Of a stretch of DNA of 64,000 nucleotides, positions 32,806-41,116 are shown piece after piece (positions within the stretch are counted from its first letter, which is position 1; each line of letters begins with the position of its first letter). The translations under genes and the position numbers were made by a program. The DNA comes from Desulfocapsaceae bacterium (GTDB lineage: Bacteria > Desulfobacterota > Desulfobulbia > Desulfobulbales > Desulfocapsaceae). The notes beneath the pieces were generated by a model. That model was not told the DNA's origin. It searched no databases and saw only the letters and a program-made list of their open reading frames with translations. The stretch spans positions 43,908-107,907 of the forward strand of contig JARLHL010000071.1 of the NCBI GenBank assembly GCA_031292275.1, given 5' to 3'.

Positions 32806-33489
32806 TCAATCGAGTTTTGTCGAAAACAACACATCGCCAGTCACTGCAAGAAAACCGCCAAGGGGGATTCTTTGGGGCCAGCACCTTTCCACTGTTCTGG
32901 CGAATGCGGGACCATTCGGTAGAACGATTGCAGTGCGTAATCGTAAGTTGTCAAGCGGAAGCTTCGAGAATACTGCCAAGAGCTCCTTACGGGTATGCCA
33001 GTGAGCACCCTTATATCCGCCAATTCCACCTGTGCGGCCCTTCATCAAATAGAGGAGGCTGTGACGGTTCAATAAGCCCAGCACGAACCGTCGACGTGTA
33101 ACCCGGATCAGTTCGCGCAGTGCAAGTTCCTGACGATCGACGAAACTGAGGGCTGTCACGGATACGGTGAAATCAAAGCTTCGATCGGGAAAGGGGAGTG
33201 ACTGTGCCAAACCGGCAACATACCGCTCTCCCTTAGCCGCGTGCGTGGCAGCATATATCAGCCAATCTTCATTCAGATCGAGACCCACTACTCGTCCCCG
33301 TATATCGCTGGCAAACATGCGCGTAAAATGTCCTGTCCCGCAACCAATGTCCAAGAGAGAAGAACCGGGTTCTGGTCGAAGGAGCGACTGGAGAAGAGCG
33401 TACTCGACGGTTCCGATCCACCGTCCTCGGGGCGAGTCATACCACGCTTGATAGGTTTCAGGTTTCATAACCATCACCCATTGTTCCAT
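32806..33489 (-). CDS. Class I SAM-dependent methyltransferase (UbiE-like)
   Basis: 227 residues. Motif I LLDIGCGTGHFTRMFA, GLDLNEDWL, and motif FDFTVSVTALSFVDRQELALRELIRV. Substrate unknown. ATG 33489 overlaps the stop of the upstream sterol-desaturase-family gene (ATGA), so the two are co-translated and may modify the same lipid. ATG 33468 (MKPETYQAWYDSPRGRW) is an equally good start. Confidence 0.8.
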   Translation of the reverse strand: MEQWVMVMKPETYQAWYDSPRGRWIGTVEYALLQSLLRPEPGSSLLDIGCGTGHFTRMFASDIRGRVVGLDLNEDWLIYAATHAAKGERYVAGLAQSLPFPDRSFDFTVSVTALSFVDRQELALRELIRVTRRRFVLGLLNRHSLLYLMKGRTGGIGGYKGAHWHTRKELLAVFSKLPLDNLRLRTAIVLPNGPAFARTVERCWPQRIPLGGFLAVTGDVLFSTKLD

Positions 33490-34304
33490 CAGTGCCGGTT
33501 AATGGGCACAACACCCGAATCGCCCACGAATGGCATAATCAAGAGTCGAATCAGAGAGAGTTTGCGCTGGTCTCGATATTGAGCCAGACCGATCAGCATC
33601 TCCGTGTGGCCATTGGCGGGTTGATCTTTATATGTGCCGAAGAGACGGTCCCACCACGGCAGATTAAAACCGAAGTTACTGTTGGTCTCCCGGATGATCA
33701 CCGAGTGATGAACACGATGCATGTCTGGAGTAACGGCCAACATCCGCAGTATCAGGTCGATCTTTTGAGGAATTTCTATATTGCTGTGGTTGAACATCGA
33801 GGTGGCGTTCAGAACTATTTCGAAGAGCAGTACAGCCAATGGCGGCGGGCCGATGGCAGCCACGGCAGCCAGCTTGACAAGCATGGATATAACGATTTCA
33901 AGGGGATGAAATCTCAAACCGGTGGTCAGATCAAAATCCAGATCCGCGTGATGCACCCTGTGCAGCCTCCAGAAGGCCGGAATCGCGTGGCTCAGGACAT
34001 GTTGCGTGTAAAGCACAAGATCCAGCATCACTATGCCGCTGATGATTTTCAGCCAAAAGGGAAGGGCCGAATGGTTGAGCAAGCCCCAATTATGCTCCGC
34101 CGCAAGCTGAGCCATACCCATGGGGAGAAGAGGGAAAACCAGCGCCACCGACAGAGGATTGAGGGCGACAAGAGTCAGATTGATAAACCACCGTTGAGCC
34201 TTGGGAACGGTTTTTTCCCTTCGGGGAGTAAGGGTCTCCATGATGGCCAGCACCATCAAAATACCGAGGAAGGTGCTGAAGCGAATGATTTTTTCCGCTT
34301 CCAT
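33489..34304 (-). CDS. Sterol desaturase / fatty-acid hydroxylase family membrane protein
   Basis: 271 residues with several membrane helices and the di-iron histidine motifs HVLSHAIP, HRVHHAD and HRVHHS. The family hydroxylates or desaturates lipids and usually needs O2, which is odd in an apparent anaerobe; some members have other functions such as ether-lipid cleavage. RBS AAGGAGAG before ATG 34304. Confidence 0.82.
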   Translation of the reverse strand: MEAEKIIRFSTFLGILMVLAIMETLTPRREKTVPKAQRWFINLTLVALNPLSVALVFPLLPMGMAQLAAEHNWGLLNHSALPFWLKIISGIVMLDLVLYTQHVLSHAIPAFWRLHRVHHADLDFDLTTGLRFHPLEIVISMLVKLAAVAAIGPPPLAVLLFEIVLNATSMFNHSNIEIPQKIDLILRMLAVTPDMHRVHHSVIIRETNSNFGFNLPWWDRLFGTYKDQPANGHTEMLIGLAQYRDQRKLSLIRLLIMPFVGDSGVVPINRH

Positions 34305-34467: not shown

Positions 34468-35178
34468 TTAAAAACGTCCCTTGGAAAACCCAGCCCTTCG
34501 TGATGCCTTCAGCCGTTCAACGAACTTCGGAATAAAGAATGAAAAAGCAAAAAGCCCAAGAGACAAGAACACCTTCCAGGACAGCAGCCCCTCCCATTGA
34601 CCGCTCGACCAGACTTCTTTAAGTGTCCCGACAAAGAACGTGAAGATAAATGTGCCGACAATGATGCCTAAAGCCGTCCCGGAAAAATAATCCCTGAAAT
34701 GCACCCTCGTCAGCCCCATGCCAAAGTTCATCGGGGTGAACGGAAAGTAGACCAGACGCAGATAAAGGACCGTGGCAAATCCGTTTCGCTCGATGGCTTC
34801 ATCGTATTTCCTGAGTCGATCACCGATGAGTGAAGCGGCGAAGTCTCTCCCTAAGTAGCGCCCGATAAAAAACGAGAGGCTTGCACCGAGCATAGCCCCT
34901 ATCCAGACATAGATAAAGCCGAAGTAAGGGCCGAAGATCGCCGCGCCGATAGTTGTCAGGAGGGTCCCCGGCAGGAAAAGGCAGACACCAACGGCATATG
35001 TGCCGATGAAGGCCACAGGCGCCCAGGGTCCGGTAGTCGCAAGCAGCTGCCCCAGCCTTTCGGCGGTGAGATAATCCCGCAAAGGTGTGAAACGAGCGAC
35101 CACAACTGCCGTGACGAGAAAGAGAATAAAAAAGGCTGCCTTAACTATCGAGCCCTTGCTATGATTATTCGATTCCAT
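34468..35178 (-). CDS. TVP38/TMEM64 (DedA-like) membrane protein
   Basis: 236 residues, about six hydrophobic segments, with the VTT/SNARE-associated core: FLPGTLLTTIGAAIFGPYFGFIYVWIGAMLGASLSFFIGRYLGR and YLRLVYFPFTPMNFGMGLTRVHFRDYF. Start ATG 35178 (MESNNHSKG) is preferred because AGGGG lies 8 bases upstream. It overlaps the end of the Sec permease gene by 14 bp, so it belongs to the selenoprotein operon. E. coli relatives (YdjX/YdjZ) sit next to a rhodanese and have been linked to selenium/tellurium metabolism (memory). Confidence 0.82.
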   Translation of the reverse strand: MESNNHSKGSIVKAAFFILFLVTAVVVARFTPLRDYLTAERLGQLLATTGPWAPVAFIGTYAVGVCLFLPGTLLTTIGAAIFGPYFGFIYVWIGAMLGASLSFFIGRYLGRDFAASLIGDRLRKYDEAIERNGFATVLYLRLVYFPFTPMNFGMGLTRVHFRDYFSGTALGIIVGTFIFTFFVGTLKEVWSSGQWEGLLSWKVFLSLGLFAFSFFIPKFVERLKASRRAGFSKGRF

Positions 35179-36448
35179 AAACATATCCCCTGACTCCGGA
35201 ACCTTCATGATTTTTCATAGGCGACCTTCTCTTGAGGTACGGTATTCCATTTTGTAAAGAGATACCGATTGAACATGCACTTTTGACAGCATTGTGATTC
35301 ATGTTTCTCTCATGCTGGAGGAATTTAGAAAAAATCATGATAAAAACAATCGATGCCAAAACCGTACTCATGTAGTTCACGACTGCAAAGATCGAAGCGG
35401 AAAAATAAAGACCGTCAATATTTGCTCCCAAGACCTGGGAGCCGACAAACGCTCAAACCATGCTCCATTGAGGTGGAGCAAAATCACTTTTCTGAAAAGA
35501 ATGGATCAAATAATTACTAAGCAGATAAATGCAAAAGAACCCCCATATCACAGCAATGATGTAGGAGAATGCCAGTATTGAAAATTGCAATACCTTCGTG
35601 TCCAAAAGAAAGTGATTATGGAGATAGATGGCTAATCTGTAAAAACTGAATCCGTATAGGCATGAAATCGGTATTAAAATGAATTATGCCGGCAGTATAT
35701 TTTCAGTGGGCATCCTCTCTGCTTTAATGTGTATATAAAACAGGCACGTGAGTTTGGCGACCAGCAGGAAAATACCGAATATCAAAGTACACAAGGAAGC
35801 AACCGCCGCAATTGATGCGATGTTCGTACTGAGTGACATAACGGCAATTCCTGTTCCTACCAGGCTCACCAAACCAAATGCAAACACATCAAGAAGCCAG
35901 ACAAAACTCAGTTTCTCTAAGTCAATGGGTTGAATGAACCACGTTTTAAGAAATCCAAATTCAAGCCTGAAAATACTAAACCACAGAATTCCGAAGAATA
36001 TCACACCAGGTAACATCAGTACCTGAAGGTTCGACGATAAATACGGAATAAAAAATTGCACAGGAGCCATAATCACACATGCTGTCATGGAAAGGGAAGC
36101 GACAGGCACGAAAATCCCCACACCGAGCGTCGGAGGCCCGGACATGAACTTTAGATATTCGCCCTTATTGGCAATCCATGCTATGAACTGTTTCAGACAC
36201 ACTATCAGAGTCCCCAGGTTTATCAGCGTAAACACCAGCATGATAACGATCAAAGGCCAATAGAGCCCGAGCTGCTCCGCTGTCAGTACTGCCGACATGA
36301 CATCCAGTATGTTCACCATTCCTTTGCCATGAGGGATCACGTATTGGAGATAATTGAAGGCCATGAGCGCTATCCCTCCAGCGGCAAGAGGAATCTGAAA
36401 TTTCAATGGAGTAAATTGCATCTTGCTATCTTTGGTAATGTCCGGCAT
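35165..36448 (-). CDS. TDT/TehA-like permease with selenocysteine (TGA at 35453) and an internal TAA (35684)
   Basis: Translation from ATG 36448 (GGGAGG upstream) gives 254 residues with about six membrane helices, then TAA 35684-35686. The same frame continues without another stop except TGA 35453-35455 to 35165, adding a convincing four-helix half (FILIPISCLYGFSFYRL ... AVIWGFFCIYLL ... QWSMV-Sec-AFVGSQVLGANIDGLYF ... FAVVNYMSTVLASIVFI). A perfect SECIS-like hairpin with the loop GGTCT follows the TGA. Together the halves make a 10-helix, 427-codon protein like tellurite/dicarboxylate permeases; Sec is codon 332. The TAA is probably a recent nonsense change (one base from TTA, Leu) or a sequence error; two separate genes are the alternative, but no RBS or start is evident for the second. 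May match a family I recall as 'TsoY (seleno)protein'; unverified. Confidence 0.7.
35424..35442 (-). promoter_or_regulatory. SECIS-like hairpin of the permease
   Basis: On the minus strand GCTCCCAGGTCTTGGGAGC: a perfect 7-bp stem with loop GGTCT, the loop sequence of the E. coli fdhF SECIS. The loop starts 18 nt after the TGA. Confidence 0.8.
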
Positions 36449-36506
36449 TGGATGCCTCCCTGGCCTACTAATATAGTCCATGCTTGTTTTCCCTGGCAGA
36501 TCCGTA

Positions 36507-36779
36507 TTATTGAGACAGTCCAAGATGCCTGGCAATTGCGGCTTCAACTTTCTTTTCGTCAATGTCACAGCCCTGCACAACCAGTTCATCCCCCACCATG
36601 ATCGCCGGAGCAACCGGCAAACCCGATTTTCTATACTCTTCGGTATGATACTCGTCTCTCGGTTTAGCAAAGGTCTCGATTACGATATTGTACGTATTCC
36701 CCAACCTGGGGATTAATTCGGCAAAGTGACTTCATGTCTTGCCGCCGGGCTGGTTCAAAAAAACACTCACCTTGAGCAT
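36507..36779 (-). CDS. Small thioredoxin-fold-like selenoprotein, copy 2 (TGA at 36732)
   Basis: ATG 36779 with GGAGG upstream; codon 16 is TGA (36732-36734), then 74 more codons. The protein reads MLKVSVFLNQPGGKT-Sec-SHFAELIPRLGNTY, a helix and strand region, then LPVAPAIMVGDELVVQGCDIDEKKVEAAI, which is the cis-Pro/strand/helix end of a glutaredoxin/thioredoxin-like fold. 90 residues. Parallel to the next gene upstream in length, Sec position and SECIS. The Sec lies at the end of the first strand loop, where the CxxC of thioredoxins sits. The redox partner is unknown. Confidence 0.85.
36698..36712 (-). promoter_or_regulatory. SECIS-like hairpin of thioredoxin-fold copy 2
   Basis: On the minus strand TCCCC-AGGTT-GGGGA; the loop starts 25 nt after the TGA (24 nt between). 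Same loop and spacing as copy 1, but with changed yet still paired stem bases. Confidence 0.78.
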
Positions 36780-36892
36780 ATTCTTTCCTCCATTCGATAA
36801 ATCATTTCCGTTCCGCACATCATTGCGGTGTTTGACTGAGAGGCTGTCTTTTAACAAGTATCTCGGAATTGAACGACCAGCTCCCCCTCCCC

Positions 36893-37213
36893 TTACATCC
36901 CAAAAATGCGGCCAAAAATCCCTTTCTTTTCGGATTCCGGTTCGGATATTCCCAAATGCCGGCAAATAACCTTTTCTACCTTATCCTCGGAAATATTGGC
37001 CCCTTCAACCACAATCTCATCCCCGACCATAACAGCCGGAGCCACAGGAAGATCGAGTGCGAAGTAGTCATCATTCTGGTACTCTGCCTTGGGTTTGGAT
37101 GTAACTTCAATCACGATATCCTTGTATTTTTCGCCCAACCTGGGCATCATTTGCTTAAAGTTCATTCACGGTTTGCCGTTGGGCTCATTGAGGAAAAATC
37201 TCACGTTCAACAT
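36893..37213 (-). CDS. Small thioredoxin-fold-like selenoprotein, copy 1 (TGA at 37166)
   Basis: ATG 37213 with AAAGGAG upstream; codon 16 is TGA (37166-37168). Protein MLNVRFFLNEPNGKP-Sec-MNFKQMMPRLGEKY ... LPVAPAVMVGDEIVVEGANISEDKVEKVICRHLG plus a basic tail SEKKGIFGRIFGM, 106 residues. It aligns end to end with the neighbour (36507-36779), both with Sec at 16. An ATG follows the TGA directly but has no RBS and would delete the first strand. Same operon, 22 bp after the rhodanese-DsbD gene. Confidence 0.86.
37133..37145 (-). promoter_or_regulatory. SECIS-like hairpin of thioredoxin-fold copy 1
   Basis: On the minus strand GCCC-AGGTT-GGGC; the loop starts 25 nt after the TGA. The stem differs from copy 2 at a base pair that stays complementary, i.e. 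covariation. Confidence 0.78.
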
Positions 37214-37235
37214 ACTTTCTCTCCTTTTGCTTTTC

Positions 37236-38993
37236 TTATCTGTCGTCCTTTTTGATTATTGCCATTCGGCCCAGGAACTGATCAGGTGGGAGATAATCCA
37301 CCAAACGCAGGTCCTGTCTTTCCTTACCGTTTATGTCCAGAAACACGATGGTCGGAACGCCTTTGATTCCGTATTCTTTCAGCAATCGTTCATTAACCGG
37401 GTTACCGGCCTTGGTTACATCCACCTTAATCATCACAAAATCGCTCTCTGCTTGCTTCACCACCAAAGCATCATGAAAGGTGACTTCATCGAGTGCTACA
37501 CACGGTGTACACCAGGTGGCGTAGAAATCGATAATGACAGGTTTTTTGAGGTTCAGGGCCTCTTTTAGAGTTTCTTCTGCATAGGGTCTCCAGGGAACGC
37601 CCGCCCCCTGCATGGCCAATGACGTGAGGAGAAAGGCGGCAAGGACAAGGCAGGCAATGCCTGTTCCGCCCTTGAGCCAGGGGAAGGCCCGGAAGTTAGC
37701 CTGATTCTTGTCAATCCATCCGAGGTGCAGTCCCGCAGATAAAGCGACCAAAGCGACCAGAATCGTCCCTCCATGGCCGGGGAGGAGCGGTCGGACGAAA
37801 TGTGCCGCCATTCCGACCAGGACCCACCCCATAAGTGTCCGCACCCAGTTCATCCAGCCTCCCGAACGGGGAAGTTTTTTCAGCTGTCCCGAAAACATCG
37901 CCAACAGGAACAGCGGCAGGCCAAGCCCCAGACTCAACGTGAAAAAGATAACGAACCCGAGCCAAGGACTTCCCATACTCGCAACCCAGGTGAGAAGACC
38001 CAAAACGAAGGGTCCTATACAGGGAGCCGCTACCACCCCAAGGGTCAGCCCCATAAAGAGACTTCCGAAATAACCGGTGTAGGATTTAGCGGCAGCCTGA
38101 GTCAGGCCGCTTGGCAAACGCATCTCCCACAGCCCGAAAAGACTGGTTGCAAAAAAGACAAGAACCGCCGCCACAGCCACCAGGACAAAAGGATTCTGAA
38201 GCATTCCCCCCATCAAGCCGCCGGTTAGGGATGCAACAACACCAAGCAGTGAGTTGGTCAAAGCCAGGCCCAGCATATAGCAAAAACCATGCACAACGAG
38301 GGTTCCTTTGCCTTCCCCTTCTCTTGTGGCCTGACCGCCAAAGTACGAGACGGTGATCGGGATCAGGGGGTAGACGCAAGGGGTGAGATTTAAGGCCATG
38401 CCGCCGGCAAAGATCCCGAGCAGGGTCCAGATCATGGCCCACCCCGAGAGAGGTCCCGGTGCCTTGGATTCTGCAGGTGTTTGCATAAGCCCGGCGGGAG
38501 TGCTTTCAACGGGCAGGCCCTTGCCCTGCCATTCCGGGTAGCCATGGGGGTCACGATAGACGTTTTTATAACCAAGTTTCACGGCCACACGGGCCGCCGA
38601 GTCGCTGCGGACTCATGTGAGGCCCGCTCAGTAAAAGATGATCGTGCGATTCTTATCCGGCCCTAAGAAGGTTTCAAGTGCTCCAGCCTTGCGCCACCTT
38701 GACCATGCCGTCGGCTCCATGGGAAAAAGCACTGCGCCTTGGATATGTCCCGTCCGGTATTCCCAATCCTGGCGGGTATCCACCAGAAAAAGTCTACTGG
38801 CGTCCTTCGGGTATTGCTCAGACAACTCTCCGGTGGTTATGATTTTATAGCCTCCGGCCTTCGCTTCGGCCAGGACATCATCCCATCCAGCCTGTTTGGG
38901 GGGAACAGCGCGATTGGTCAGCCAGAGGGCTCCAATCGTCAGCACTACCGCGACAAAGGCTATGAATGCCGTTTTCCTATTCTGCATCCCCAT
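37236..38993 (-). CDS. Rhodanese-DsbD-thioredoxin fusion with two selenocysteines (TGA at 38628 and 38613)
   Basis: 585 residues in one frame when two TGAs are read. Order: signal anchor (TAFIAFVAVVLTIGALWL), rhodanese (about 35-155, FLVDTRQDWEYRTGHIQGAVLFP), active site NRTIIFY-Sec-AGLT-Sec-VRSDSAARVAVKLGY (Sec 122 and 127), then a DsbD membrane domain with LTPCVYPLIPITVSYFGG and AAPCIGPFVLG cysteines, and a C-terminal thioredoxin domain FYATWCTPCVALDE. Rhodaneses of this type read YCxGxxCxxS, so both Sec replace conserved cysteines. DsbD moves reductant across the membrane; the fusion implies delivery of electrons, or of sulfur/selenium, to a periplasmic rhodanese. Without read-through the pieces lack a start and an active site. 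Confidence 0.9.
38582..38596 (-). promoter_or_regulatory. SECIS-like hairpin for the second rhodanese Sec codon
   Basis: On the minus strand CGGCC-CGTGT-GGCCG; loop begins 22 nt after TGA 38613-38615 and has G in its second base. Confidence 0.68.
38599..38614 (-). promoter_or_regulatory. SECIS-like hairpin for the first rhodanese Sec codon
   Basis: On the minus strand GAGTC-CGCAGC-GACTC; loop begins 19 nt after TGA 38628-38630. The second TGA lies partly inside its 5' arm. Confidence 0.68.
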
Positions 38994-39023
38994 ACCTCTT
39001 TTCTCAGTGATGATTGTTCAGGT

Positions 39024-39473
39024 TTAGAGTTTTTTTTCACGCTTGAGCTTTGAGAGGAGAAATGTTGCGCCTCTTAAAGAGAGCCCGAGTTTATCGGCAA
39101 GCTCAGGAGGACCAAGAGGGCCGTGCGTATTGACAAGCGAGATGATCTCCTCTTCCAGCTCTTCGAACCAGTCTTCGAACAGGACCAACAGCTCAGGATC
39201 GGTGATCGCCATCAGCTGTTTTGATTGAGCCACCTTTTCCACCAGCCTCTGGCACATCTGCGTCGGGTCGACACCTTCGCCCATGCATTCGGCCAGTCAG
39301 AGATGGACCAGGCTCGATACCTTGTCGCCTCGGGATTCTCCCATGAGATTCCAGAGGAACTGTGAACGAGCTTCTTCCTCCAAGGTAGAGAACAGCACTT
39401 TCAAGACCTTGGCTATCTCGTCGAGCGCGTCTTCCGGATCCATACCATCAACAATTTTCAATATCTCTTTCAT
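39024..39473 (-). CDS. Winged-helix-like protein with selenocysteine (TGA at 39297)
   Basis: 149 residues when TGA 39297-39299 (codon 59) is read: MKEILKIVDGMDPEDALDEI ... DKVSSLVHL-Sec-LAECMGEGVDPTQMC ... and a C-terminal helix-turn-helix region ISLVNTHGPLGPPELADKLGLSLRGATFLLSKLKREKKL. Mostly helical with acidic stretches. The Sec is four residues before a Cys (Sec-L-A-E-C), a possible selenenylsulfide switch. A SECIS-like hairpin follows. Start ATG 39473 with GGAGG 11 bases upstream. Directly after the ArsR gene. No family name recognised. A redox-sensing regulator or adaptor is a guess. Confidence 0.78.
39265..39282 (-). promoter_or_regulatory. SECIS-like hairpin of the winged-helix gene
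   Basis: On the minus strand GGGCGA-AGGTG-TCG-A-CCC: a six-pair stem with one bulged A and loop AGGTG, beginning 21 nt after the TGA. Confidence 0.65.
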
Positions 39474-39495
39474 GCGGATGATCACCTCCCCATCC

Positions 39496-39897
39496 TTAAA
39501 AGGTTTTCCTTGCGGTTAACAGGTCAGTTGCCACTGTGCTCAATGTTTGAACGACATCAAGGATTCGGGGGTCAACCAATTCATAATAGATAAATGGGCC
39601 GTTGCGCTCGATTTTGACCAGAAGCGAACGCTTGAGTTCCTTCAGGTGATGGGAGACAAGAGGCTGAGAGAGACCGAGTTCCTCAACGATAGTCGAGACG
39701 GATTTTTTGCCGTTGCTCACACAAAGGATGATCCGGAGCCGGTTCTCATCGGAGAGGCTTTTGGCCAGAAAGGCAACCGGGTGGAAATGTTCGTCCGCCA
39801 GCACTTTACCCTGCCGTTTTGCAGCCAAGGATGTATCACCATCTTTTTCTGCGGCATAAAAACCTTGCACCGATTTTCTTCGGGCTATCTTTTCCAT
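39496..39897 (-). CDS. ArsR/SmtB-family transcriptional repressor
   Basis: About 133 residues. A winged helix at about 45-120: LSDENRLRIILCVSNGKKSVSTIVEELGLSQPLVSHHLKELKRSLLVKIERNGPFIYYELVDPRI. The classic alpha-3 metal site (ELCVCDL) is not present; one Cys lies in LCVSNG, so the ligand is not evident. An N-terminal basic extension of about 30 residues is unusual. ATG 39897. First gene of the selenoprotein operon and its likely repressor. Confidence 0.85.
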   Translation of the reverse strand: MEKIARRKSVQGFYAAEKDGDTSLAAKRQGKVLADEHFHPVAFLAKSLSDENRLRIILCVSNGKKSVSTIVEELGLSQPLVSHHLKELKRSLLVKIERNGPFIYYELVDPRILDVVQTLSTVATDLLTARKTF

Positions 39898-39917
39898 AGA
39901 CAATCATCCATTCAATT

Positions 39918-40042
39918 TCAGGAGCCTCCGGGGTTTGCGGCGACTGTTTCCAGGCTCATTGTGCCGGCCTTTCTCATTTCAACGAAGTGGGCAGCCCGCC
40001 GGGACCGCCGCCTATGATGACGCAATCATGAAGTTGTGACAT
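39918..40042 (-). pseudogene. Remnant of an FAD/NAD(P) oxidoreductase start
   Basis: GGGAGG and ATG 40042 start MSQLHDCVIIGGGPGGLP, a dinucleotide-binding N-terminus of thioredoxin-reductase type, which stops after 22 codons (TGA 39974). A shifted frame continues AHFVEMRKAGTMSLETVAANPGGS to TGA 39918. Looks like a gene reduced by an internal deletion. It precedes the ArsR gene on the same strand. Confidence 0.5.
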
Positions 40043-40672
40043 ATAAAGCCTCCCATGGCGATTACAGAAATTTCGTGGAGCCTGAATGGGGAAATTGCCT
40101 CTTCGACCTCACAGCTATTTTGTCCGATTTTAAATACCTTTAAATTTATGATAGTTAGGGGTATTACACAAACATAACAACATATCAGTAATTATTTATA
40201 TATGGATGACAGAGAAAAGTCAACACCATTTTATGGCTGAAGTTTAATCCACCATGAGTATAGATTCAGATCGCCCCCGACATTCGTGCAATGAGGGGCA
40301 TTTGCAATCACTTAGATGTCAGATCTAGCCCGGATCGGCACGGCGCTGAGTTCACGCAATCAAGGTCCCGATTCCTTAGAGTGCATTTTCGCGCGAATGT
40401 TCGCTGTACCCTTGAAGCAGAATAAATTATGGTGGCGAAGAAGCTTTTGCCGACTTTCCGTCCATTTGCTATTCAGCCCCCCGGAATACGGCTTATCGTC
40501 AGCCTGCCGCCGGTCTTCATGATCAAAAAATCATCTTAAAAATTGCAGCCGATGCTCCTTTTTTTATTCAGGATATTTCATTGACATTTCGTTGACAAAA
40601 CGCCCCCCTGATGTTTATGCTAAAAAAACAGCAGCGCTATTCTACGTTCATGATATCTCAAAAGGTGAAGCT
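40043..40672. other. Intergenic region upstream of the selenoprotein operon
   Basis: 630 bases between the minus-strand operon and the plus-strand lipoprotein. The part 40120-40210 is AT-rich and should hold the operon promoter, but I could not fix a convincing operator. No supportable gene; short ORFs here have no RBS or family. Confidence 0.35.
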
Positions 40673-41116
40673 ATGAAGGAATATTTTGTAATGGGTTCGT
40701 TGGTTGTTTCTCTTTTTTTGACCTCCTGCACAGGAGAGTTCAACAGGGCAGAGTCAGGGACGGCAATGGGGGCCCTTGGCGGGGCCGTAGTCGGACAGGC
40801 CATAGGCAGAAATACAGGAGGAACTGTGATTGGCGCCCTGGTTGGCGGGGCCGTCGGATATATGATCGGCAACGAGATGGACAAACAAGACCAGCAGCGA
40901 CTTAATCAGGTGTATGAACAGGGGGTATCCGGCCAGACATCGTCATGGCGTAATCCTGACAACGGCAATGCCTACAGTGTCACCCCGGAGCCGGCTGTAA
41001 CAAGCCAGGACGGACCTTGCAGAAAGGCGAAAATCTCTTCGGTCATCGATGGAAAACCGCAGACCGTCTATACAAATGCCTGCAGGAATTCACAGGGGGA
41101 ATGGGTTCTCCAATAA
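40673..41116 (+). CDS. Glycine-zipper outer-membrane lipoprotein
   Basis: 147 residues. Lipoprotein signal MKEYFVMGSLVVSLFLTSC with lipobox LTSC, then a glycine-zipper (GTAMGALGGAVVGQAIGRNTGGTVIGALVGGAVGYMIGNEMD), then a C-terminal surface-antigen-like domain (SSWRNPDNGNAYSVTPEPA ... CRNSQGEW) as in the Lpp0805/RT0821 group. Anchored to the envelope, role unknown. Start ATG 40673 after AAAGGTG. Confidence 0.8.
   Translation: MKEYFVMGSLVVSLFLTSCTGEFNRAESGTAMGALGGAVVGQAIGRNTGGTVIGALVGGAVGYMIGNEMDKQDQQRLNQVYEQGVSGQTSSWRNPDNGNAYSVTPEPAVTSQDGPCRKAKISSVIDGKPQTVYTNACRNSQGEWVLQ

Follow-up and report, generated by a model that had tools for sequence, protein, structure and literature searches.

The minus strand of a 64,000-nucleotide stretch of DNA from a Desulfocapsaceae bacterium (contig JARLHL010000071.1, positions 43,908 to 107,907; the whole stretch is called the window and positions are given in its coordinates) carries an operon which is a member of the already named Tso system. 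Comparison with relatives gives good support to the prediction that the in-frame TGA codons of its tsoA, tsoB and tsoC genes are read as selenocysteine (Sec), while a further gene of the same run, tsoY, is broken. As to function, we give a probability of about 0.5 to the reading that the operon, under the control of the regulator TsoR, encodes a Sec-based relay which would carry reductant across the membrane to a Sec-containing rhodanese domain, likely on the periplasmic face. A 2026 review (PMC13188914) presents Tso as a three selenoprotein operon, lists TsoA, TsoB, TsoC, TsoX and TsoY, credits the system to Haft and Tolstoy (2025) and counts it with the small number of described operons in which several adjacent genes retain Sec; no description of a Tso function was found in the literature searched.

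Nine genes follow one another in tight succession from 39903 down to 32806 (Table 1). TsoA, TsoB and TsoC score above their NCBIfam cut-offs and are neighbours on one strand, every gene from tsoR to tsoY fits its NCBIfam model, and the order tsoR-tsoA-tsoB-tsoC is that of the Tso system. TsoY passes its cut-off (250 bits) through the part ahead of an in-frame TAA alone, with 328.5 bits before this stop and 164.9 after it. The window differs from the described system in having two tsoC genes and a broken tsoY in the same run, in a further tso operon elsewhere in the genome, whose TsoA has Arg for Sec, and in a predicted operator. For comparison we used 55 tso loci, which include three same-genome sets (the window and L140, L161 and L162, L106 and L163), and 36 control loci, which are distant DsbD relatives mostly from other phyla. 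TsoX, present in four of the 55 tso loci, had no match within the stretch 25001-50000 of the window. The Sec-assisted organometallic (SAO) operon is likewise a multi-selenoprotein operon according to the same review (PMC13188914), but the SAO families, compared by an NCBIfam scan alone, had no matches in the window.

A first-pass annotation of this DNA had described an ArsR gene followed by a winged-helix protein, a rhodanese-DsbD fusion, two thioredoxin-like proteins, a TDT-like permease and a TVP38 protein, with six in-frame TGAs, and all of this was confirmed. So was the tight spacing with overlap, the gaps from tsoR to tsoY being 10, 30, 22, 113 and 25 nt and followed by a 44-nt overlap of tsoY with the TVP38 gene. 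The hunch in that annotation that names such as TsoX and TsoY might apply was right, and the whole set, for which it gave no described function, turns out to be the Tso system.

Table 1. Features of the tso operon and its flanks, in window coordinates
Feature	Position	Strand	Details
Conserved inverted-repeat element, predicted TsoR operator	40179..40201	-	1 mismatch to pattern
Likely trxR remnant	39954..40063	-	N-terminal end 39962-40063 and C-terminal end 39954-39995, middle gone
TsoR, ArsR/SmtB-type regulator	39496..39903	-	NF045707, 171.5 bits (cut-off 115)
TsoA, helical, winged-helix-like C-terminal end	39024..39485	-	NF045695, 228.5 bits (cut-off 170); predicted Sec codon 39297-39299
SECIS stem-loop of tsoA, apical loop AGGTG	39264..39283	-	Pairing conserved across relatives
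TsoB	37236..38993	-	NF045694, 993.7 bits (cut-off 805); predicted Sec codons 38628-38630, 38613-38615
Tandem pair of SECIS-like stem-loops in tsoB, with loops CGCAGC and CGTGT	38581..38615	-	
TsoC, first copy	36893..37213	-	NF045708, 144.6 bits (cut-off 45); predicted Sec codon 37166-37168
TsoC, second copy	36507..36779	-	NF045708, 132.9 bits (cut-off 45); predicted Sec codon 36732-36734
tsoY, SLAC1/TDT-like permease, broken	35165..36481	-	NF047643; TAA 35684-35686; predicted Sec codon 35453-35455
TVP38/VTT-domain membrane protein	34468..35208	-	PF09335, 90.7 bits
Fatty-acid-hydroxylase superfamily protein, possibly co-transcribed	33489..34304	-	PF04116, 97.7 bits
Class I SAM methyltransferase	32806..33489	-	PF08241, 68.7 bits

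Selenocysteine codons and the loss of tsoY

The Sec reading is favoured because UGA is kept in relatives and because both the sequence that follows it and the stems are conserved. UGA stands at the Sec position of TsoA in 31 of 31 relatives, at both positions of TsoB in all 40 loci covering the columns, and in 54 of 56 copies of TsoC, where the exceptions are a TGC (first copy of L043) and a TCA in a fragment (L032). The TsoB loci number 43 and are the subset with at least 58% identity out of at least 79 distinct loci among the matches listed; the Sec columns are not covered in L050, L053 and L057, and two matches in L026 and one in L043, all at 30-37% identity, were excluded as other rhodaneses. 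When 395 genomes of the phylum were searched for TsoA, TsoB and TsoY, one TGA was held by 34 of the 35 TsoA matches above cut-off (33 genomes) and two TGAs by 23 of the 24 such TsoB matches (22 genomes). Tso keeps Sec almost without Cys forms. The exceptional TsoB is a stand-alone gene with Cys in both columns (TGC and TGT; L161, 5526-7265), found in a genome which also has a Sec-type tso operon, and this fits the Sec columns being redox-active. The same gene is flanked by methyltransferase genes on the other strand. Two further sequences touch on this family: a rhodanese 37% identical to the TsoB domain, with Cys in the first column and TGA in the second (L043, 7225-7533), and a TsoB-like fragment with two TGAs and one TAG (G278:C40:4874-5368), which is probably a pseudogene.

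Conservation downstream of the UGA extends to silent positions. Among four-fold degenerate codons the third base was identical in 0.78 of pairs over the 18 codons after the UGA of tsoA versus 0.39 elsewhere, with corresponding values of 0.59 versus 0.42 in tsoB and 0.74 versus 0.385 in tsoC; circular shifts reached the values after the UGA in 2 of 83, 5 of 392 and 1 of 49 cases, respectively. In the Sec insertion sequence (SECIS) of tsoA the stem pairs are preserved in 37-41 of the 41 rows, with GC/AT covariation at one pair (29 versus 11 of the 41), the tsoC stem shows a G-C/C-G exchange among copies (30 versus 5 of 41), and pairing of the second tsoB stem holds in 42-44 of the 44 rows. The first tsoB stem is less certain, as the consensus fold picked a different partner. 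Folding of single sequences was tried as a proof of SECIS elements and rejected in favour of these comparative tests: the z-scores at the six TGAs (-2.76 to -0.01) were no better than for shuffles or control TGAs, and among the 2318 control TGAs of the window a hairpin of -8 kcal/mol or lower occurred at 110 and one of -4 kcal/mol or lower at 524. Thus the stem-loops reported in the first-pass annotation are present, with essentially the loops it listed, but do not on their own rise above chance; its Sec reading is supported instead by the homologous columns, by the third bases after the UGA and by the stems in relatives. The sel genes which that reading presupposed are all in the genome, namely selA, selB, selC (tRNA-Sec) and two selD genes. 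One of the latter (the second selD, G000:C64:33414-34343) itself has an in-frame TGA, and the other does not.

The TAA in tsoY, overlooked in the first-pass annotation, is in frame with homology on both sides of it, and this extra stop is not explained by a Sec reading. Its column holds Tyr or Phe in 123 of 123 other aligned rows (four loci and 119 of the 201 TsoY proteins found), and each of the four other TsoY genes above cut-off in the 395 genomes has a single TGA and no further stop. A 254-aa protein ending at the TAA is on record from three contigs, possibly from non-independent assemblies. The operon holds no intact copy of this Tso accessory protein, and a search of the genome gave no second TsoY above threshold. 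In a near relative with a TsoB 88% identical to that of the window (L017) tsoY exists only as a fragment of about 32 codons, and when the tsoY DNA was compared with the genomes of 58 relatives, one of the two congeners gave a 97-nt piece and the other no match, with weaker matches in three genomes from further away. TsoY seems to be undergoing loss in this genus while TsoA, TsoB and TsoC stay, and since the gene is broken in the window it is apparently dispensable here. The earlier claim of five consecutive selenoprotein genes is therefore correct as to sequence and probably incorrect as to function; apparently four selenoprotein genes, with five Sec codons, are intact and one is broken.

The second tso operon of the genome (L140; G000:C109, 2016-5894) encodes TsoR, TsoA, TsoB, TsoC and VTT proteins which are 76%, 81%, 81%, 75% and 79% identical, respectively, to those of the window. 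Its TsoB has both TGAs and its TsoC has the TGA; in its TsoA an AGA (Arg) replaces the Sec TGA. The 51 nt after this codon are identical between the two tsoA copies, as opposed to 353 of 432 positions over the whole gene, indicating that the SECIS stretch is still kept. The Sec-to-Arg change seems to be recent, unless it stems from an error in the assembly.

TsoR, TsoA and a conserved upstream element

An inverted repeat of the form ATATAAAT-N4-ATTKATAT lies upstream of tsoR, or upstream of the thioredoxin reductase gene trxR where this leads the operon, and is likely the operator at which TsoR would switch tso operons. Allowing up to three mismatches, it was found in 34 of 39 loci with at least 120 nt of upstream sequence and in one of 195 shuffled sequences, a count which is more a description than an independent test since these loci had themselves supplied the pattern. 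Two of the loci (L035 and L162) represent one and the same DNA, counted twice here and among the 55 tso loci; without the doubled locus the figure is 33 of 38. For the element, as for the trxR link, the tsoR-tsoA exchange and the Sec-to-Arg paralogue, no description was found as far as our searches show, the original account of Tso (Haft and Tolstoy, 2025) being outside the literature searched. Within the window two overlapping matches with up to three mismatches were found where 0.03 were expected. A stronger check came from the whole genome, where up to two mismatches to a longer pattern returned only the window site and the C109 site, both in front of tso operons, and up to three mismatches returned 13 matches, nine of them elsewhere and all nine with three mismatches, versus seven for a reversed control pattern. 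A palindromic operator-like match at C33 lies inside a coding frame and was taken as chance.

The best relatives of TsoR among solved structures are the ArsR entries 6o8k-6o8o (about 2e-10), which we take to be SqrR, and its score against the BigR model is 45 bits (cut-off 155). The repressors SqrR, BigR and SoxR share two conserved sensing Cys (PMC10451225), whereas TsoR has no such conserved pair: only four of 31 rows contain two or more Cys, 27 contain fewer than two, and the commonest, C61, is present in 21. The only fully conserved His residues, H85 and H86, fall in an S-H-H stretch of the helix-turn-helix, and a check of the 31 rows for Cys and His, which left Asp/Glu ligands aside, found no conserved metal site outside the recognition helix.

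Of 41 loci, 39 have tsoR no more than 300 nt upstream of tsoA and two leave no room for it on the contig, and the two genes stand next to each other in all 39 judgeable loci; in L103, L104, L164 and L167 the pair is present without tsoB and tsoC. Trees were built for the 32 loci, 31 of them different, having TsoR, TsoA and TsoB. In these the TsoR and TsoA of one locus (L018) cluster with those of L043, L163 and L047, and its TsoB clusters with those of the window and its paralogue. Grouping of L018 with the window and its paralogue was rejected for TsoA (approximately unbiased [AU] test, p 8e-5) and TsoR (4e-4), and the reverse grouping was rejected for TsoB (2e-4), with the groups having been named after the trees were seen and with few well-supported forks in the TsoR tree. 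In this locus, then, tsoR-tsoA travelled jointly and independently of tsoB, in keeping with a common task of the two genes.

In TsoA, with residues numbered from the KIVDG stretch at 39458, C58 and C69 are invariant and Sec54 is replaced only in the second copy of this genome (Arg). Given that TsoR has no thiol pair, the always-adjacent TsoA would be the likeliest sensor of the signal. That the two proteins form a joint sensor, in which the Sec of TsoA and not the repressor itself reads the signal, is a tentative and rather doubtful proposal; if it were true, a selenoprotein would be the sensing subunit of a transcription switch and the Arg-containing TsoA of the second operon would be a desensitised copy. 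Assignment of a fold to TsoA was abandoned, its model having a mean pLDDT of 69.8 (under 50 in the Sec region) and a best Foldseek E-value of 0.44, with only short winged-helix matches at the C-terminus which were taken as weak. Profiles of TsoA and TsoC against PDB sequences (best E-values 0.22 and 0.039) were taken as giving nothing.

A second ArsR-type gene lies on the opposite strand between the tsoC copies in L035, L036, L040, L048, L049 and L162, and genes similar to it are found elsewhere in four more tso loci and in two of the 36 controls. In two tsoY-type loci a gene for a small protein precedes tsoR (L104, 7257-7706; L105, 11512-11838), the two being alike by eye.

A proposed transmembrane relay and its alternatives

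TsoB is composed of an N-terminal anchor, a rhodanese domain with two Sec residues, a DsbD-type membrane core and a C-terminal thioredoxin (WCTPC), with Pfam matches to Rhodanese, DsbD_TM and Thioredoxin_7. It shares with DsbD/CcdA the DsbD_TM core, whose two membrane Cys are conserved (C206 in 41 of 41 rows, C325 in 42 of 42), and the thioredoxin end, whose CxxC (C495 and C498) is present in 41 of 41 rows. It differs from DsbD in the two-Sec rhodanese at its N-terminus (PF00581, 51.4 bits), for which sulfur transfer is predicted, and in scoring 232.5 bits against the NCBIfam DsbD subfamily model, below the cut-off of 330. TsoC is modelled with a thioredoxin-like fold (mean pLDDT 87.7), thioredoxins being the top Foldseek matches at TM-scores near 0.55; two tsoC copies are also found in 20 of 47 TsoB-holding loci, and three copies in one more.

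A possible source of electrons is suggested by trxR, which matched in eight of the 55 tso loci (seven distinct) and in none of the 36 controls. The TrxR of L029, a locus of the cultured strain Desulfoprunum benzoelyticum DSM 28570, scores 357.5 bits with TIGR01292 (cut-off 343.45), and the gene is near full length in L022, L029, L035/L162 and L041. It lies directly behind the element in L026, L035, L041 and L045 and, apart from two loci considered below, ahead of tsoR throughout; L019 retains a short C-terminal piece only. The likely remnant in the window was recognised by blastx against four tso-linked TrxR proteins (E-values 1.8e-5 and 0.03 in a very small search). It seems that trxR once headed the operon in some lineages and has been repeatedly eroded.

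In the relay that we propose, TsoR would repress its own operon at the inverted repeat and NADPH would reduce thioredoxin reductase, a chromosomal enzyme taking the place of the operon-borne one here since only a remnant of trxR is left. Thioredoxin or the Sec protein TsoC would then hand electrons to the membrane cysteine pair C206/C325 of TsoB, from which they would pass by way of the C-terminal thioredoxin (C495/C498) to the rhodanese Sec pair U122/U127, and the rhodanese domain would reduce or strip a sulfane-sulfur or related substrate. TsoA may sense the signal, and TsoY, where intact, would move product or substrate. We lean towards sulfane sulfur as the substrate class because of the rhodanese and of the DsrE partners: DsrE-like proteins occur in six of 55 tso loci (one at 28% identity), a Pyr_redox_2 oxidoreductase that is SQR-like by eye in three, and an additional rhodanese in two, with none of these in the 36 controls. 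Movement of reductant or sulfane sulfur across the membrane, as suggested in the first-pass annotation, would fit the anatomy of TsoB and some of its neighbours (thioredoxin reductase, DsrE-like proteins). In L104 (8402-8987) TsoX and a DsrE-like selenoprotein are encoded between tsoA and tsoY; the other DsrE-like matches are in L103, L106, L164, L166 and L167.

Several observations weigh against the relay. Both its topology and its electron order are borrowed from DsbD by homology; DsbD has eight membrane segments, whereas a hydropathy scan of TsoB gave six core segments and the N-terminal anchor. In the window itself neither trxR nor an intact tsoY survives, and elsewhere trxR is in part incomplete, without its N-terminal part in L026 and L045 and ending at the contig edge in L049, or stands between tsoC and the VTT gene and not at the head (L022, L029). 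Sulfur-linked neighbours are a minority, neighbours of the ArsM-like and ArsP_1 types occur too, and the control loci are not phylogeny-matched. Finally, TsoB is missing in five tso loci that have room for it (L103, L104, L105, L164 and L167), and no TsoB above cut-off was found in their genomes (G195, G145, G357, G184 and G240), which means that not all Tso loci can have the relay as their core.

The ArsM-like and ArsP_1 neighbours belong to a different picture, modelled on what is proposed for the SAO system, in which TsoR would sense a metalloid and the selenoproteins would reduce, carry or export metalloids or organometals (As, Se, Te, Hg). ArsM-like methyltransferases matched in eight of 55 tso loci, six of these with at least 50% identity (the match in the window being a weak one of its own methyltransferase), and an ArsP_1 permease (219.9 bits) together with a Thioredoxin_3 protein in three, again with none in the 36 controls; TsoR is a member of the ArsR/SmtB superfamily, and TsoY is SLAC1/TDT-like. 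The SLAC1/TDT superfamily includes the tellurite-linked TehA. We nevertheless hold a metalloid system to be unlikely, given a TsoR without conserved Cys (C61 in 21 of 31 rows) and exporter neighbours that are no commoner than in controls (ABC-type ATPase 9/55 versus 7/36, HlyD-type 3/55 versus 3/36); a MacB-like permease was seen in three of 55 tso loci and none of 36 controls. The earlier suggestion of metalloid oxyanions thus finds no echo in TsoR, where two or more Cys occur in 4 of 31 rows, and some in a minority of loci with ArsM-like (6/55) or ArsP_1 (3/55) neighbours. For the remaining recurrent neighbours, 16 of 25 clusters were assessed by eye, no search for mer or ars enzymes being made.

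Unlikely to the same degree is that TsoB is a DsbD variant acting as a general periplasmic disulfide or selenenylsulfide reductase, which would repair oxidised proteins and have no special sulfur substrate. The DsbD-type core, the thioredoxin end and the trxR link of some loci would suit such a role, but the acceptor here is a fused rhodanese whose paired Sec is kept in 40 of 40 loci showing the columns, the operon has its own conserved element, and the DsrE-like and rhodanese neighbours of some loci point to sulfur. Decay of the genes, with the TGAs as ordinary stops, is highly improbable in spite of the real extra stop in tsoY, the trxR remnant and the UGA lost from the second tsoA, in view of a UGA found in nearly all relatives, the conserved sequence and stems after it, and a complete Sec machinery. 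For the Tso operon, the predicted operator, the element-linked trxR, the lone Cys-containing TsoB and the natural Sec-to-Arg TsoA offer handles on the inducer, the sensor and the need for Sec.

Flanking genes

Downstream of tsoY, TVP38/VTT proteins matched in 28 of 55 tso loci and fatty-acid-hydroxylase-like proteins in eight, with no match to either in the 36 controls. The fatty-acid-hydroxylase-like gene of the window follows the TVP38 gene after a gap of 163 nt and is overlapped by the methyltransferase gene by 1 nt, and judging by this spacing the operon may extend through both genes to 32806. A C-terminal Sec in the fatty-acid-hydroxylase-like protein was considered, a TGA standing right after the conserved end in most of the eight rows, and was rejected because one relative has TAA at its end, another diverges and the tails show no conservation; this TGA has the look of a normal stop codon. 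On the plus strand upstream of the operon, an open frame at 40592-41116 encodes a protein which by eye resembles a glycine-zipper lipoprotein.

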